Of a stretch of 39,649 bases of DNA, positions 768 through 35,935 are shown piece after piece; position 1 is the stretch's first letter, and each line of letters opens with the position of its first letter. Origin of the DNA: Candidatus Pacearchaeota archaeon (lineage in GTDB: Archaea > Nanobdellota > Nanobdellia > UBA10117 > JAFCGI01); the NCBI GenBank assembly GCA_017608235.1, contig JAFCGI010000010.1, forward strand, positions 1-39,649, written 5' to 3'. The notes under the pieces are model-generated. The model searched no databases and had not been told where the DNA came from. It saw only the letters and a list, made by a program, of their open reading frames with translations. Made by a program: the position numbers and the translations under genes.

Positions 768-792
768 TCACCTCCTATTTAGTTTTTAATTT
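768..792 (-). promoter_or_regulatory. Duplicated Shine-Dalgarno leader, copy 1
   Basis: Twenty-five bases here are identical to 1859-1883. On the minus strand the block ends in AGGAGGTGA, a near-perfect Shine-Dalgarno sequence, 5-6 bases before the start codon. The exact duplication ahead of two unrelated genes (HNH nuclease and HAD phosphatase) suggests a mobile or copied translation-initiation cassette. It also decides the start codon in both genes. Confidence 0.8.
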
Positions 793-806
793 ACTTAATA
801 ATTCTC

Positions 807-899
807 TTTTGGGGAAATATAGGTAGAGATAATCGTCATTATCTCCTTACCGTGCTTCTGTTGCCTCACGGCAGGACTTGTTCTATTATTCCCCCAAAA
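807..899 (-). ncRNA. Multibranched structured leader (candidate cis-regulatory RNA)
   Basis: The closing stem pairs TTTTGGGG (807-814) with CCCCAAAA (892-899) and may extend through AATA/TATT. Inside it are two local hairpins: an eight-pair stem GAGATAAT/ATTATCTC (826-833 with 838-845, loop CGTC) and a five-pair stem CCGTG/CACGG (850-854 with 867-871). The element fills the gap between the stop region of the 886-1236 gene, with which it overlaps, and the HNH gene start. No U-tract follows. It could be a leader control element or an RNA stability or processing structure. I do not match it to a known riboswitch. Confidence 0.5.
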
Positions 900-1236
900 A
901 AGAACTATTTATATTTAATAAACTTTTTATATCTTCAAATGAAACAATTGCTCTATCTGCTAATTTTTTTAATTGTTCTTTTTCTTTGTTTGTTAAAAAT
1001 CTCTCATATCCAATAGAATTAAATGGATATTGACTACGACACAATTGACTTCTTAAAAGATAGTTCTCCGTTTCCAATTGATTATTGCGAGATTTAACCA
1101 TACCATAATCCCAATATGGACTTATTGGAGGAGGGGTTATTAAAGAAGATACATTAGTCTCAGGAATTTGACCCATAATAAAACCTATTATGAATACTAC
1201 TATACCTATAATTATTCCTATAATTATTGTTGTCAT
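886..1236 (-). CDS. Small membrane-anchored hypothetical protein
   Basis: The 116-residue protein opens with a strong hydrophobic segment (about residues 3-23, rich in Ile, Gly and Val) that fits a single N-terminal transmembrane anchor. A proline-rich linker and a polar, possibly helical C-terminal domain follow (about residues 50-110). Small anchored early proteins of phages often affect the host envelope or exclude other phages, but nothing here proves that. The start has an AT-rich leader with no Shine-Dalgarno sequence. A G/C hairpin lies directly upstream at 1256-1285. Confidence 0.65.
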   Translation of the reverse strand: MTTIIIGIIIGIVVFIIGFIMGQIPETNVSSLITPPPISPYWDYGMVKSRNNQLETENYLLRSQLCRSQYPFNSIGYERFLTNKEKEQLKKLADRAIVSFEDIKSLLNINSSFLGE

Positions 1237-9196: not shown

Positions 9197-9361
9197 TTAT
9201 TTTGTTTTGACCTTTAACTTTTCTTCTTTTAAAATTCTATAGAAAGTTGAAAGAGGAATATCAAAAATTTCTGCCATGTCATCCATATCAATTTCACTCT
9301 TAACATTTTCCCAAACTTTATACAATATTTTATTTCTTACTTTAATTAGTTTATAGTTCAT
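9197..9361 (-). CDS. Small helix-turn-helix DNA-binding protein (54 aa)
   Basis: The ATG at 9359-9361 opens a 54-codon frame. Residues about 27-48 read as a helix-turn-helix of the resolvase or AraC-like small type: an acidic helix with MAEIF, a turn at D-I-P, then a recognition helix STFYRILKEE. It is the first gene after the strong early promoter at 9390-9418, which makes it a good candidate for an early regulator, perhaps autoregulating through the palindrome and GGGTATCCC sequence at that promoter. It is too small to be a full CI-type repressor. Confidence 0.7.
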   Translation of the reverse strand: MNYKLIKVRNKILYKVWENVKSEIDMDDMAEIFDIPLSTFYRILKEEKLKVKTK

Positions 9362-9389: not shown

Positions 9390-9418
9390 ATTTTAGCATT
9401 TTGGGATACCCTTGTCAA
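9390..9418 (-). promoter_or_regulatory. Strong sigma70-like early promoter
   Basis: On the minus strand a perfect -35 TTGACA (9418-9413) and -10 TAAAAT (9395-9390, five of six consensus bases) are separated by exactly 17 bases. The expected start is near 9383, giving a leader of about 22 bases to the HTH gene. The -35 is preceded by GGGGG, and GGGGGTTGACAA is shared with the promoter at 10216-10243. The spacer carries GGGTATCCC, a possible operator half-site pair. Confidence 0.8.
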
Positions 9419-9606
9419 CCCCCTGTGGATATTGACACAAGAGAGTTTTCCACAGGGTAGTTTTTATTTTTTCTGTTTTTAGTATTTAAATTAATCTCTA
9501 TAAATTTTCGCCGATTTTTATTTTTTCTCCAATATTTCCAAGAAACGCCTTGTGGTCTTTTTGGTCTTCTTAATTTAATAAAGCAAAAACTATTTAGTCT
9601 TTCCAT
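9415..9606 (-). CDS. Possible small basic protein upstream of the early promoter
   Basis: The 63-codon frame is rich in Arg, Lys and Asn, with a KRPQGVSWKYW segment. Its start overlaps the end of the small frame at 9590-9763. Its last 14 codons are formed by the palindrome at 9421-9457 and its stop lies inside the -35 box, which makes the C-terminus look like read-through of control DNA. It may be a real gene whose tail has been captured or a chance frame. No family is recognised. Confidence 0.35.
   Translation of the reverse strand: MERLNSFCFIKLRRPKRPQGVSWKYWRKNKNRRKFIEINLNTKNRKNKNYPVENSLVSISTGG
9421..9457. promoter_or_regulatory. Perfect palindrome with two DnaA-box-like sites (candidate origin or operator)
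   Basis: CCCTGTGGA (9421-9429) and TCCACAGGG (9449-9457) are exact inverted copies. Each arm contains a near-consensus DnaA box in opposite orientation: TGTGGATAT (9424-9432, eight of nine bases of the complement of TTATCCACA) and TTTTCCACA (9446-9454, matching the relaxed TTWTNCACA). The site sits directly upstream of the -35 box of the early promoter, beside AT-rich DNA. It could be a DnaA-dependent origin element or the operator for a phage regulator. Confidence 0.55.
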
Positions 9607-9763: not shown

Positions 9764-9772
9764 AGTAATTAA

Positions 9773-9841
9773 GTGCTACGGAAGGGTTGAGCTAATTACC
9801 GACTATTAGGTCAGAAAAATTAAGAAATTTTTAACCTAATA
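9773..9841. repeat. GTGCTACGGA motif copy 1 with adjacent long hairpin
   Basis: GTGCTACGGA at 9773-9782 recurs at 9890-9899, and both copies are followed 15-20 bases later by ACCGA. Right after copy 1, TATTAGGT (9804-9811) pairs with ACCTAATA (9834-9841) around an inner AAAAATT/AATTTTT stem, making a 38-base near-perfect hairpin. No coding frame explains this stretch. The repeat may be a protein operator or the conserved beginning of two related transcripts. Confidence 0.5.
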
Positions 9842-9889
9842 AAAATCGTAAATTCCTTATGACACAAAGAGTTAAAAAAAATAAATGTT

Positions 9890-10071
9890 GTGCTACGGAT
9901 GGTATATCACCATATAACCGATCAGATAAGCAGTATTGTATTGATACCGGATATAGGACTCGTGCATTATATCCGTTTCTGCTGCTATAAAGTCCCTCCC
10001 ATTAAAGCTATCTGACGACCTTAACGGTTGTGGAGTTGACAAGTCGGTAGAGTCATTGCTCCCTAATTTTT
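9890..10071 (+). ncRNA. Candidate structured non-coding RNA with pseudoknot (strand uncertain)
   Basis: This gene-free stretch begins with GTGCTACGGA copy 2 and a small TGGT/ACCA hairpin (9900-9912). An eight-pair stem CGGATATA/TATATCCG (9948-9955 with 9968-9975) follows, whose loop base block GGACT (9956-9960) can pair with AGTCC (9991-9995), an H-type pseudoknot. It ends with GGAG..TGAC/GTCA..CTCC (10032-10062) followed by TAATTTTT, resembling a terminator on the plus strand. The loop of that last hairpin (GTCGGTAG, 10043-10050) can pair with CTATCTGAC (10008-10016), giving an alternative fold. The plus strand fits best, but no strong promoter is seen there. Confidence 0.45.
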
Positions 10072-10090
10072 AACCTACTTTGATTTGTAG

Positions 10091-10124
10091 AAAAAACAAA
10101 AGAGCGCCTAATCAAAGACGCTCT
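10091..10124 (-). terminator. Intrinsic terminator of the small RNA
   Basis: On the minus strand a six-pair stem AGAGCG/CGCTCT with a 12-base loop is followed at once by TTTGTTTTTT. This is a textbook rho-independent terminator and gives the small RNA a defined 3' end. Confidence 0.8.
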
Positions 10125-10210
10125 CCATGTTTCCAATGACAGAAACAATATTTTGACACAAAAGTGCCAAAGCTTTTTCACTTTTTAATTGTAATATTAT
10201 CTCTGTCATT
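10091..10210 (-). ncRNA. Candidate phage small RNA of about 120 nt with own promoter and terminator
   Basis: A strong promoter (10216-10243) predicts a start at about 10209-10210, exactly the first base of a long rod-like hairpin. AATGACAGA/TCTGTCATT close it (10202-10210 with 10135-10143), AATATT/AATATT continue, and AAAAGTG/CACTTTT form the tip, with asymmetric internal loops between. About ten bases later an intrinsic terminator follows: AGAGCG/CGCTCT (10119-10124 with 10101-10106) and TTTGTTTTTT (10100-10091). No open frame of note lies inside. The rod with internal bubbles is loosely reminiscent of 6S-type RNAs, but no homology is claimed. Confidence 0.65.
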
Positions 10211-10215
10211 CTTTT

Positions 10216-10243
10216 ATTCTACTCTTTCTAAAATGTTTGTCAA
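10216..10243 (-). promoter_or_regulatory. Sigma70-like promoter of the small RNA
   Basis: A perfect -35 TTGACA (10243-10238) and a -10 TAGAAT (10221-10216, five of six) are 16 bases apart. The promoter lies right after the terminator of the lysis genes and right before the long hairpin. GGGGGTTGACAA is shared with the early promoter at 9418, and TTGACAAACATT is shared with the promoter at 35935, so the three phage promoters look related. Confidence 0.75.
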
Positions 10244-10257
10244 CCCCCCCCCTAATT

Positions 10258-10294
10258 AAAACAGCTCCAAGAAAGGCCGAAAACTTGAAGCTGT
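10258..10294 (-). terminator. Terminator after the holin gene (end of late operon)
   Basis: ACAGCTTCAAG (10294-10284 on the minus strand) pairs with CTTGGAGCTGT (10271-10261) with one G-U pair, giving an 11-pair stem and a 12-base loop, followed by a short U-run. It lies 21 bases past the holin stop and just before the small-RNA promoter, so it is the likely end of the late transcript. Confidence 0.75.
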
Positions 10295-10314
10295 CTTATC
10301 TATATATAGTAAAT

Positions 10315-10533
10315 TTATTCTAACTTCATCTGTAATTGGGGCAGATTTACTTTCAAGAATTTTGTAATTTCCCCAAATATCAATCCGACAATTGCAATTA
10401 GTTGTGGAGATAATTCTAAAAGATTTAAGACATCTAAAATAAGTGCTAAAAATCCCGCTATCGCATATCCGCCAATTCTCCAAAGAAGAGATTGGAATCT
10501 TTTGATTATTACTTCCTTTAATTCTGTTTGCAT
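10315..10533 (-). CDS. Putative holin (two transmembrane helices)
   Basis: The 72-residue protein has a charged N-terminus (residues 1-18), two hydrophobic segments (about 20-40 and 44-60) and a short polar tail. This matches small class II-type holins. It follows the amidase gene by 13 bases and is the last late gene before a terminator, the usual place for a lysis pair. The holin opens the inner membrane so that the amidase reaches the cell wall. The overlapping frame 10256-10483 is a shadow. Confidence 0.7.
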   Translation of the reverse strand: MQTELKEVIIKRFQSLLWRIGGYAIAGFLALILDVLNLLELSPQLIAIVGLIFGEITKFLKVNLPQLQMKLE

Positions 10534-10546
10534 GATTTTGTATTAA

Positions 10547-11053
10547 TTAATTTAAGAAACGACCTTTGTTTTCTAACATCCAATTATATAAATTTTGACC
10601 GGGACATAGAGTTGGATAATAATTTCTATGTCCTCTTAGCGATTTAATGCCTGACTTCTTTTTAATTCTATCTAATACCTTTGTTAAAGATTCTATTTGT
10701 TTATTTGACATTCTCTCTCGCATAAAATTTCCACAGAGACATATATCAATATGAAATCCCTTATAAGCACTTGTAGCGTGTCCCGACTCATCTAAGCTTC
10801 TGGCCCAGTGTTCTTCTCCATCACCAGTAATCAAACAATTATAAGCGCAATAAAATCCTAAACTACTCTGGGAGTACCCTCTATTTTTATGTCCTCTATT
10901 TATTGCTTCAAAACTTGTACGATCTCTATCTGTAGCTGTGTGATGAATTATTACATCAACTTTTTTATTAAGAATTTCTCTTAAAAGCATTTGATATAAC
11001 TTAATCAATTTTGTAATTATCGCTATTTGTTTTTTTAATATTTCCACTGACAT
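10547..11053 (-). CDS. N-acetylmuramoyl-L-alanine amidase (endolysin, Amidase_2/PGRP type)
   Basis: The 168-residue protein has the zinc-ligand pattern of T7-lysozyme-type amidases: the HH in IIHHTA (37-38), GHR (141-143) and Cys150 in PTLCPG. The fold spans about residues 32-165; an extra N-terminal helix (1-30) precedes it. It cleaves the bond between N-acetylmuramic acid and L-alanine in peptidoglycan, so the host is a bacterium with a cell wall. It forms a lysis cassette with the downstream holin. Its AT-only leader TAATAAAATAATATG recurs at 12190. Confidence 0.9.
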   Translation of the reverse strand: MSVEILKKQIAIITKLIKLYQMLLREILNKKVDVIIHHTATDRDRTSFEAINRGHKNRGYSQSSLGFYCAYNCLITGDGEEHWARSLDESGHATSAYKGFHIDICLCGNFMRERMSNKQIESLTKVLDRIKKKSGIKSLRGHRNYYPTLCPGQNLYNWMLENKGRFLN

Positions 11054-26274: not shown

Positions 26275-28817
26275 TATGGTGTATATTTAATAAAGATTGA
26301 ACCTATTGTTGTTGAAGCCGCAGTAGGTGGTTCTCCTGTTCCATAAGATACATTTATAATTTGGTCTGTTGACGCAGTTCCATGGTCAGCAGCTTCCCAT
26401 TCTCCAGTAAGTGTTTCACTTGCTGATAAATCTAATAAATTAGCCTCTGTTATTCCACCAATGGTTGTTGCTGTAAATGCTCCTGTAATATCAACAGTTC
26501 CTACAATCGTAGTAGTAGCCAAAGTAGATATGCCTGAGGCATTTAGATTAGTAGTAGTAGCATCTCCAGAAACTATTATATCTCCAGCATCAATGGTTTC
26601 GTGAGTATCTAAATTAGTAAACCAACCCTTTGATATTCTGCTTCCTGACTCTGCTAAAGCACCTGTCATTGTTAAATTCCCAGCTCCTAATGCTAATCCT
26701 CCGAAAGTAGGAGTAGAAGCTTGAGCTATGTCTTGCGGGAGAGAAAAAGTTATTGTTTGAGAAGAAGAAGCTATTATGATTTGGTTTGCTGTTCCAGTAA
26801 GAATAACAGAACCTGTTATACTATTTACATCATCAACTCCTGCTCCAGTTCCAGCTGGAGTGTCCCAAGAAACAGCCGATACTCCTGATTTTAGATATTT
26901 ATCAGCATCTGCGGCTAATCTAATCCAATTAGAACCATTAAAATATATAATATCTCCTTGTGTTTCTCCTGTAATTGTTAAATCTTCTACATTCCAAATT
27001 CCTGAACTTATATTTATATCTCCTTTGTCATCATCAGAAACTATTGAACAAGTAAGAGTATTTGTAATATCTGTATCAACTACATTTGTCCAACTCCAAT
27101 TATGTAAATCAGTATCTACTTCAATCGTAGCATTAGATAAAATTGCCGAAGTTCCTCCTGTAATAGTAAGAACACTTGAAGTTACTTCTGTTAAATTTCC
27201 TTTGTTTATATTTATATCAAAACTATCTGTTGGGTCTTCTACTATACTAAAAGTAGTCCCGTCAAAATCAAGATTTATCGCATTTGTGCTTTGGTCTGCT
27301 CCATCTATTTCAAGATTGGCAAAAGTGTTTGTGTCTGTATAATTTCCCGAATGTATATTAGTTTCTCCCTGATCAGATGTCCAATCAATATGCTCATTGG
27401 CTACATAATTCTCCAAAGCATCGTGGTCGCAGGTAATTGCTCCATTAGAAGCAATAGTGCAGTCATTACTCATAGCCACTCCTACTGGGTCATTAGAAGC
27501 ATCTCCTACATAAATATAATTATCTGTCAAAACCATATCTGTATCATTATCTGCCAGATATTCTGTTGAAGAAGCGATATAAGCGTCTAATAAAGGACTA
27601 TCTAAAATCAAGGAAGTAAAATCTGCATTTCCATCACTATCAATATATCCCACTTCGGCATTGGCATAATCTTTAAAATAAAGTTTATTAGCACCAGCAC
27701 TATCTCCCATACGAATCATAGTATCCTCTCCTGAAGGGACAGTTATAGCGTGAGGAGAATGATGCATTATTACCATTTTTCCCTGATTGGCGTGGGAATA
27801 AGAAACATACCCGACTCTGGAAACAGCACCAGTTGTCGGAGTGGTAGTTACCATATCTCCATTAGTAGAAAGATATAAAGCATCTCCGTCACTCCAATCC
27901 GAAGTATCCAATGTGTTTAATTCTCCTCTAACCCTGACTAAAATTGTCTGTCCTGTGGTTTTTGTTTCCGCAGCCACACCTACAAAAGCATGTTTTGCAG
28001 AATTTGTATTGTCAGCTAAACTTACTTGTGGAAATTGTCCAGTTGCTCCTGAAATATAAACCACTTGTCCTTTTGTTATATCTTCAGCTGCTTTACAAGA
28101 TAAAGTTAGTGCAGAAGCAGCAGCAGTTCCTATTCCTGTTAAATTAGAACCATCTCCACTAAAAGAGTTAGCAGTTACGGTTCCAGTAACATCTAAGGTC
28201 CCTGTCGCAGTTGTAGTTGCTAAACTCGTAATACCCTCAACAGTTAAAGCACCCGATATAGTCCCACCTGTTAATTCTAAATAAGAAGTGTCTAACGAAC
28301 AACCCTCATCTGTTCCATCACAAGAAAAAGCACCAAAATCATCACTTGCCATATTAGTTGAAGTAACTGAAGTTAAATATCCAAAAGCATCTATTTCAAG
28401 AGAAGTATAATAAGAACTTGAAGCGGCTAACCAAATCGGGTCGGATTCAGAAGTTAGAAAACTATCAGCCGAGTTTAGATTCCCAGTAATAACTAAATCT
28501 CCAGTAGATACATCTATCCAGAATGGAGCAGTTGCTGTAGCGTTATCTCCTAATACTAAATCAGAAGTAGTGGCAGTTAAATATGTAAATCCGGTTGAAG
28601 TTGAAAATAGAGAACCACCTGTACCGCTAATTCCAGTTAGATTACTTCCATCTCCATAATAAACAGTTGTTGAAGTTCCTATATCCCAGCTGGAATCTCT
28701 GGGTACTAAATAAGTTCCATCTAAAGTAAAGAATGGAAGCTGTTGAATAGTAGATCCAAATACTGCAGACCCACAAAACAATAAGATTATTGCTGTTATA
28801 ATTAAATTTTTATTCAT
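26274..28817 (-). CDS. Large secreted-type tail fibre or surface protein (847 aa)
   Basis: A classic signal peptide (residues about 1-21, ending in AVFG) precedes a Ser/Thr/Gly-rich beta-structured protein. Repeated short units such as GDGSNLTGI (residues 55-63 and again near 225) and LDVTGTV-like strands suggest a beta-helical or trimeric fibre. Paired cysteines are present. A signal peptide on a fibre is uncommon and may mean display on the host surface. The gene is coupled by ATGA to the upstream repeat protein. Confidence 0.65.
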   Translation of the reverse strand: MNKNLIITAIILLFCGSAVFGSTIQQLPFFTLDGTYLVPRDSSWDIGTSTTVYYGDGSNLTGISGTGGSLFSTSTGFTYLTATTSDLVLGDNATATAPFWIDVSTGDLVITGNLNSADSFLTSESDPIWLAASSSYYTSLEIDAFGYLTSVTSTNMASDDFGAFSCDGTDEGCSLDTSYLELTGGTISGALTVEGITSLATTTATGTLDVTGTVTANSFSGDGSNLTGIGTAAASALTLSCKAAEDITKGQVVYISGATGQFPQVSLADNTNSAKHAFVGVAAETKTTGQTILVRVRGELNTLDTSDWSDGDALYLSTNGDMVTTTPTTGAVSRVGYVSYSHANQGKMVIMHHSPHAITVPSGEDTMIRMGDSAGANKLYFKDYANAEVGYIDSDGNADFTSLILDSPLLDAYIASSTEYLADNDTDMVLTDNYIYVGDASNDPVGVAMSNDCTIASNGAITCDHDALENYVANEHIDWTSDQGETNIHSGNYTDTNTFANLEIDGADQSTNAINLDFDGTTFSIVEDPTDSFDININKGNLTEVTSSVLTITGGTSAILSNATIEVDTDLHNWSWTNVVDTDITNTLTCSIVSDDDKGDINISSGIWNVEDLTITGETQGDIIYFNGSNWIRLAADADKYLKSGVSAVSWDTPAGTGAGVDDVNSITGSVILTGTANQIIIASSSQTITFSLPQDIAQASTPTFGGLALGAGNLTMTGALAESGSRISKGWFTNLDTHETIDAGDIIVSGDATTTNLNASGISTLATTTIVGTVDITGAFTATTIGGITEANLLDLSASETLTGEWEAADHGTASTDQIINVSYGTGEPPTAASTTIGSIFIKYTP

Positions 28818-35831: not shown

Positions 35832-35873
35832 AAAAACAGGCAAATCATCTCTTTAAGAGATACGATTTACCTG
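35832..35873 (-). terminator. Intrinsic terminator or attenuator before the portal gene
   Basis: CAGGTAAATC (35873-35864 on the minus strand) pairs with GATTTGCCTG (35846-35837), with one U-G pair. An inner five-pair hairpin ATCTC/GAGAT extends it, and TTTTT follows (35836-35832). It lies between the promoter at 35907-35935 and the portal start, so it may attenuate the structural operon unless read-through or antitermination occurs. Confidence 0.8.
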
Positions 35874-35906
35874 CTGTGGTTGACCACTAAGTAAGGTTAT
35901 TAGTTT

Positions 35907-35935
35907 ATTTTATTGTTTATTTTAATGTTTGTCAA
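35907..35935 (-). promoter_or_regulatory. Consensus promoter ahead of the portal operon
   Basis: TTGACA (35935-35930) and TAAAAT (35912-35907) are separated by exactly 17 bases. The expected start is near 35900, giving a leader of about 70 bases that holds the terminator hairpin. The 12 bases TTGACAAACATT are identical to those of the small-RNA promoter at 10243. The -35 region overlaps the end of the preceding gene. Confidence 0.75.

Follow-up and report, generated by a model that had tools for sequence, protein, structure and literature searches.

A promoter, rod-like hairpin and terminator at the head of a phage early region as a possible default-terminated leader

In phage lambda, the PR'-tR' arrangement is Q-dependent and yields the phage 6S RNA as its terminated product. 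Phage 21 likewise has a terminator, tR', after its late promoter, and readthrough there is brought about by Q (PMC6606751). The putL RNA of phage HK022, about 70 nt in length, acts on downstream terminators (PMC9378689). Base pairing is the mode of action of the phage-encoded small RNAs OOP, sar, VpdS and PreS, in the case of VpdS and PreS with Hfq (reviewed in PMC12197685). A unit composed of a promoter, a long hairpin and a terminator (unit A) in a stretch of phage DNA of 39,649 nt, analysed in full and called the window below, was compared with these systems.

The comparison suggests that unit A may work like the lambdoid PR'-tR' arrangement. Both have a strong, constitutive-looking promoter, a short structured transcript and an intrinsic terminator with an operon beyond it, and in this phage two gene blocks were handled alike. 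In unit A, a sigma-70-type promoter was followed by a terminator within approximately 200 nt and then by module genes, the first ORF lying 325 nt further on. Unlike the lambdoid arrangement, unit A stands at the early rather than the late module, its RNA of approximately 120 nt begins with a long 5' rod, and there was no homology; among the 30-odd proteins scanned, about 25 of them from the window, none was recognised as N-, Q- or NusG-like by Pfam. Because no antitermination factor was found among these proteins and a site for one would be hypothetical, membership of the PR'-tR' class is not claimed. As in HK022 putL, two stem-loops occupy the very start of an early phage transcript; in contrast to put RNA, the second stem-loop of unit A is the terminator itself.

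The window corresponds to the IMG/VR contig IMGVR_UViG_3300033148_002949 (39,649 bp). A 114-nt direct repeat was present at both of its ends, which indicates that the phage genome is complete and either circular or circularly permuted. The window was binned as contig 38 of a 1.2-Mb genome, in an order whose genomes measure 0.3-1.0 Mb, and the nearest relatives in named genomes of one tail-region protein were found in Patescibacteria bins. The host is probably a small bacterium of the Patescibacteria; both the host and the bin membership of the phage are likely rather than proven. The ORFs taken as genes lay on the minus strand throughout, in the order terminase, portal, capsid, tail, amidase (10547-11053), holin-like lysis ORF (10315-10533), unit A and early genes. 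A terminator-like hairpin 3' of the holin-like gene (10257-10298, minus strand), with a 15-pair stem followed by TTTTAATT, closes the late/lysis operon. Most genes of the phage had no Shine-Dalgarno sequence. Among the few Shine-Dalgarno-like starts seen were those of two GTG-start genes, each preceded by a near-identical 36-nt leader (AAATTAAAAACTAAATAGGAG-GTG; 760-795 and 1851-1886).

Promoters were searched for with an assumed sigma-70-type consensus, which may not be that of the unstudied host. The promoter of unit A (10216-10243, minus strand) comprised the -35 hexamer TTGACA (10243-10238), with a G run just upstream, a 16-nt spacer and the -10 hexamer TAGAAT (10221-10216). An exact TTGACA combined with at least 5/6 of the -10 hexamer occurred only three times in the window (at 35935, 10243 and 9418), always on the coding strand; for that strand, shuffled sequences gave a mean of 0.43, and three or more in 1.5% of cases. 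The transcript, of approximately 120 nt (10088-10210), is predicted to start at 10210/10209, where the first base of an 18-pair stem lies. This stem (10210-10193 with 10152-10135, around a 40-nt loop) forms the rod (10135-10210) and contains 2 G-U pairs besides 16 Watson-Crick ones; per shuffled genome, with both strands counted, 0.03 stems having 16 or more Watson-Crick pairs were expected. The two remaining pairs wobble only in minus-strand RNA, in agreement with the direction of the promoter. The intrinsic terminator followed at 10126-10099, with 11 pairs (GGAGAGCGTCT-TTGATT-AGGCGCTCTTT) and then TGTTTTTT.

The earlier note on this DNA had thus correctly placed a minus-strand promoter whose first transcribed base is the first paired one, a terminator about 120 nt downstream, and the whole between the end of the lysis genes and the early genes. 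Its long interrupted hairpin of three stems was borne out in part: one long rod is present, and only this rod and the terminator hairpin were found, the two small inner hairpins being weak. The fold of 10210-10088 had an energy of -48.3 kcal/mol as compared with -21.65 +/- 3.25 in shuffles (z -8.2; 0 of 200 shuffles as strong) and was the second strongest among the 1,978 segments scanned over the whole window. In the shuffled window, 0.00 promoter-terminator units were expected. The short transcript is the predicted default product, and as both of its ends are folded, it would be stable and may have a further role. The replication-origin nonanucleotide TAATATTAC inside the rod was disregarded, since approximately two copies per genome are expected from composition.

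The favoured reading, to which a probability of about 0.4 is assigned, is that unit A is a default-terminated leader and that readthrough of its terminator into the early region is the control point. Host RNA polymerase would start at the strong sigma-70-type promoter just past the terminator of the late operon, and the transcript of approximately 120 nt, its 5' end locked in the rod, would stop at the intrinsic terminator unless it were read through towards the first early ORF (9763-9590, minus strand). From these sequence features we infer promoter activity, default termination and regulated readthrough. The phage would employ the device twice, once for the early region and once ahead of the portal gene.

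The region downstream of unit A bears on this reading in both directions. No minus-strand promoter matching at least 9/12 positions occurred in the non-coding DNA (9765-10087) that separates the terminator from the first early ORF. This ORF, of 57 codons with coding-like codon usage, would therefore depend on readthrough, which favours a leader. Against a leader, a helix-turn-helix-like ORF at 9361 has a promoter of its own (9390-9418, minus strand; TTGACA-17-TAAAAT with TG before the -10 hexamer) with no terminator in between. Given this promoter and the gap of 325 nt, most early genes need not depend on unit A, and both features favour a separate RNA.

Within this gap, approximately 310 nt (9765-10075) had no convincing ORF on either strand and a fold z of about -2; a long-range stem ACCGACU/AGUCGGU, a hairpin CGGATATA..TATATCCG and two copies of the motif CCGTAGCAC were noted there. 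The matching position in relative G391 is occupied by an integrase gene, so an attachment site or a second structured RNA is possible in this stretch. DnaA-box-like TATCCAC(A) sequences were seen beside early promoters in the window (9405-9460) and in relatives G387 (28360-28370) and G388 (10240-10220).

How readthrough might be regulated was addressed through the fold. No alternative pairing of the 5' arm of the terminator was found for unit A (p 0.44 against shuffles), and deletion of the 3' arm cost 19 kcal/mol without an alternative partner appearing. Antiterminator alternatives for unit A and for the portal-gene unit seemed plausible in constrained folds and were rejected because they did not stand out against shuffles. 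As unit A has no antiterminator fold, a processive antitermination factor, as with lambda Q or N, would be the probable regulator; if readthrough is not regulated at all, the RNA itself is the product.

The unit before the portal gene (unit E) was found by a scan for long intergenic hairpins. Its promoter, TTGACA-17-TAAAAT (35907-35935, minus strand), had its first 12 nt identical to those of the unit A promoter; outside the hexamers, 15 of 22 positions agreed, as compared with 6.3 on average (p 1.5e-4). A hairpin GUGGUCAACCAC and then a long stem with U5 followed (35832-35889, minus strand), about 10 nt upstream of the ATG that probably starts the portal gene (35824). The long stem comprised 17 pairs, and between the window and its relative L042, four of these had changed in a compensatory manner, two on one side only, and none was broken. 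This covariation signal was lost when the partners were slid; the sequences compared are two independent ones, so the shuffle control is weak (35/500). Compensatory changes, the support that the earlier note had asked for, were thus seen in unit E. The hairpin GUGGnCAACCAC (35889-35878, minus strand, in the window; 2587-2600 in L042) was invariant, while the adjoining stem had changed, and it is a possible binding site for a regulator of the portal leader. Unit E, with its covarying stem and invariant hairpin, is a concrete candidate for a regulatory RNA family.

Relatives (G386-G392 and L042; 45-80% capsid identity) were gathered by capsid-protein alignments, and most of them share gene-order blocks with the window. 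The same architecture of promoter, hairpin and terminator was found before the portal gene in L042/L040/L041, G390 (L058) and G389, and in G394 before a TerS-like gene. At the spot corresponding to unit A, G387 had a 10/12 promoter and a 21-pair rod that closes two hairpins and ends in U7, and in G391 the integrase gene was directly preceded by a terminator, with a structured leader and the promoter TTGACA-18-TATACA upstream of it; G388 and G389 had a promoter followed by an ORF, with no rod, which counts against a leader. In G386 (L054, 283-150, minus strand), a terminator, an 11/12 promoter, a 22-pair rod enclosing two hairpins, and a U-tract formed a unit that stands alone: it had no ORF of 20 codons or more, and no ORF lay near it on the available contig, a further point against a leader. 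Units were then defined as a promoter of at least 10/12 and a stem of at least 9 pairs, 4 of them G-C, with a U-rich tail, within 180 nt. Eight such units occurred on the coding strands of eleven records, where 100 shuffles gave 0.11 on average, an enrichment that is descriptive because the rule was set after units A and E had been seen. On the opposite strands, G389 had one unit and G386 had two different ones, including the 283-150 unit. The recurrence of the device at the starts of gene blocks suggests that it is probably built-in on/off control rather than a one-off.

Unit A itself is known from one genome, and the contigs of relatives at 70-80% identity stop before the region. Searches of 433 kb of related contigs and of 18 genomes from the order detected no homologue of it in sequence or structure; its covariance model matched only itself and its own complement, and no DNA similarity to phages, its own genome or the related records was found. 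A 20-nt match in L011 was attributed to chance, as it lay inside a coding-looking stretch. Searches for TerL or MCP in approximately 370 genomes of the phylum and class returned only the genome analysed here. A suggestive alternative fold was seen only in the G387 leader (L068, 11415-11545), where pairing of UGUCUAA..CAACAAGAA with UUCUUGUUG..UUAGACA (16 pairs, p 0.01) would compete with the rod and terminator; this leader is a candidate for a true attenuator.

If terminator readthrough is the switch, the default-terminated leader is testable from metatranscriptomes alone. The phage promoters would also offer a first look at recognition by the host polymerase, and in a limited literature search, gene control in phages of Patescibacteria appeared to be little studied. 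A broader version is considerably more doubtful. It holds that a family of phages of Patescibacteria-type bacteria runs both of its transcription modules with long-hairpin terminators close to the promoters and with its own antitermination system, the unit A RNA doubling as a stable small RNA.

A tentative alternative, judged nearly as likely as the leader, is that unit A makes an independent regulatory small RNA of 120 nt whose targets in trans would be RNAs or proteins of the phage or the host. Unit A shares with OOP, sar, VpdS and PreS a promoter of its own and a predicted phage transcript that is short and terminated; base pairing with a target, or an Hfq site, would be putative in its case. 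Its own promoter, its strong terminator, the folding of both ends and the lack of an antiterminator fold suit this alternative, as do the 325 nt of non-coding DNA downstream, the separate early-gene promoter and the ORF-free unit of G386. The absence of homologues in the contigs and genomes searched speaks against it. Furthermore, no trans targets within the phage rose above chance, the longest perfect antisense match to the phage coding strand being an ordinary 13 nt, and the position of unit E in a 5' UTR argues for cis action. The self-contained small-RNA unit of the earlier note stands as far as its own promoter and terminator and a predicted short default product are concerned; given the second unit before the portal gene and the comparable units in relatives, a cis-acting leader is at least as likely.

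Particular classes of RNA were also considered. Rfam searches at gathering and permissive thresholds gave no match except a tRNA in a relative (RF00005; L054 644-715), which lies in a non-coding stretch upstream of TerS in G386. A polymerase-binding RNA, as had been suggested, found no support: the rod-like shape is shared with bacterial 6S RNA (RF00013), whereas unit A gave no 6S match and has a continuous 18-pair stem without a central bubble, together with an intrinsic terminator hairpin. The phi29 pRNA is of similar length and also has paired ends; in contrast, unit A had no Rfam match, its inner hairpins were weak, and this phage has an ordinary large terminase. A phi29-pRNA-like three-way junction was tried for the rods that close two hairpins in G386, G387 and G391 and at 930-772 of the window and was rejected, as neither a family match nor, by eye, consistent loop pairing was found. 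The suggested decoy, taken as a CRISPR-repeat mimic, was likewise unsupported: the phage's own assembly contained no second copy, no repeat and no Cas1, the host being itself uncertain. By the tests made here, unit A thus appears not to be a 6S RNA, a put RNA, a pRNA or a CRISPR-repeat mimic.

That no coding frame explains the stretch, as had also been claimed, proved incorrect. An ATG frame of 33 codons (MTEIILQLKSEKALALLCQNIVSVIGNMESVFD; 10209-10108, minus strand) has its start codon at the first or second base of the predicted transcript, and its codon score was within the coding range (21-27% of coding windows were lower), a level reached by only 2.5-2.7% of non-coding, off-frame open windows. 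Unit A could accordingly encode a peptide of 33 residues on a leaderless mRNA whose start codon is hidden by the rod. The chance of 33 open codons was estimated from base composition at roughly 7%, and because most phage genes have no Shine-Dalgarno sequence, its absence here does not exclude translation. However, the stop codon sits in the terminator loop, the units of G391, G386 and E contain no comparable peptide, and the frame in G387, of 42 codons, has an unrelated sequence. Since the frame does not recur in the G391 and G386 units and coding has no need of an 18-pair rod, this reading is considered unlikely, a rival rather than the favourite.

It is quite unlikely that unit A is a mere insulator, with hairpins that keep late transcripts out of the early region or make mRNA ends more stable: long intergenic hairpins are common in this phage family, but those at 30080-30034 and 33060-32996 have neither a promoter nor a U-tract, both of which unit A has, and the late operon is already terminated by the hairpin at 10298-10257.

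These two hairpins (minus strand) flank capsid genes, and both recur in place in L042 with a different sequence; that at 33060-32996 showed two compensatory pairs and one broken pair. Hairpins directly 3' of the capsid gene were also present in relatives. A very strong rod at 772-930 (minus strand; z -8.2), which closes two hairpins and has neither promoter nor U-tract, was found between ORF 886-1236 and an HNH endonuclease ORF (403-771) and is perhaps part of an HNH element.
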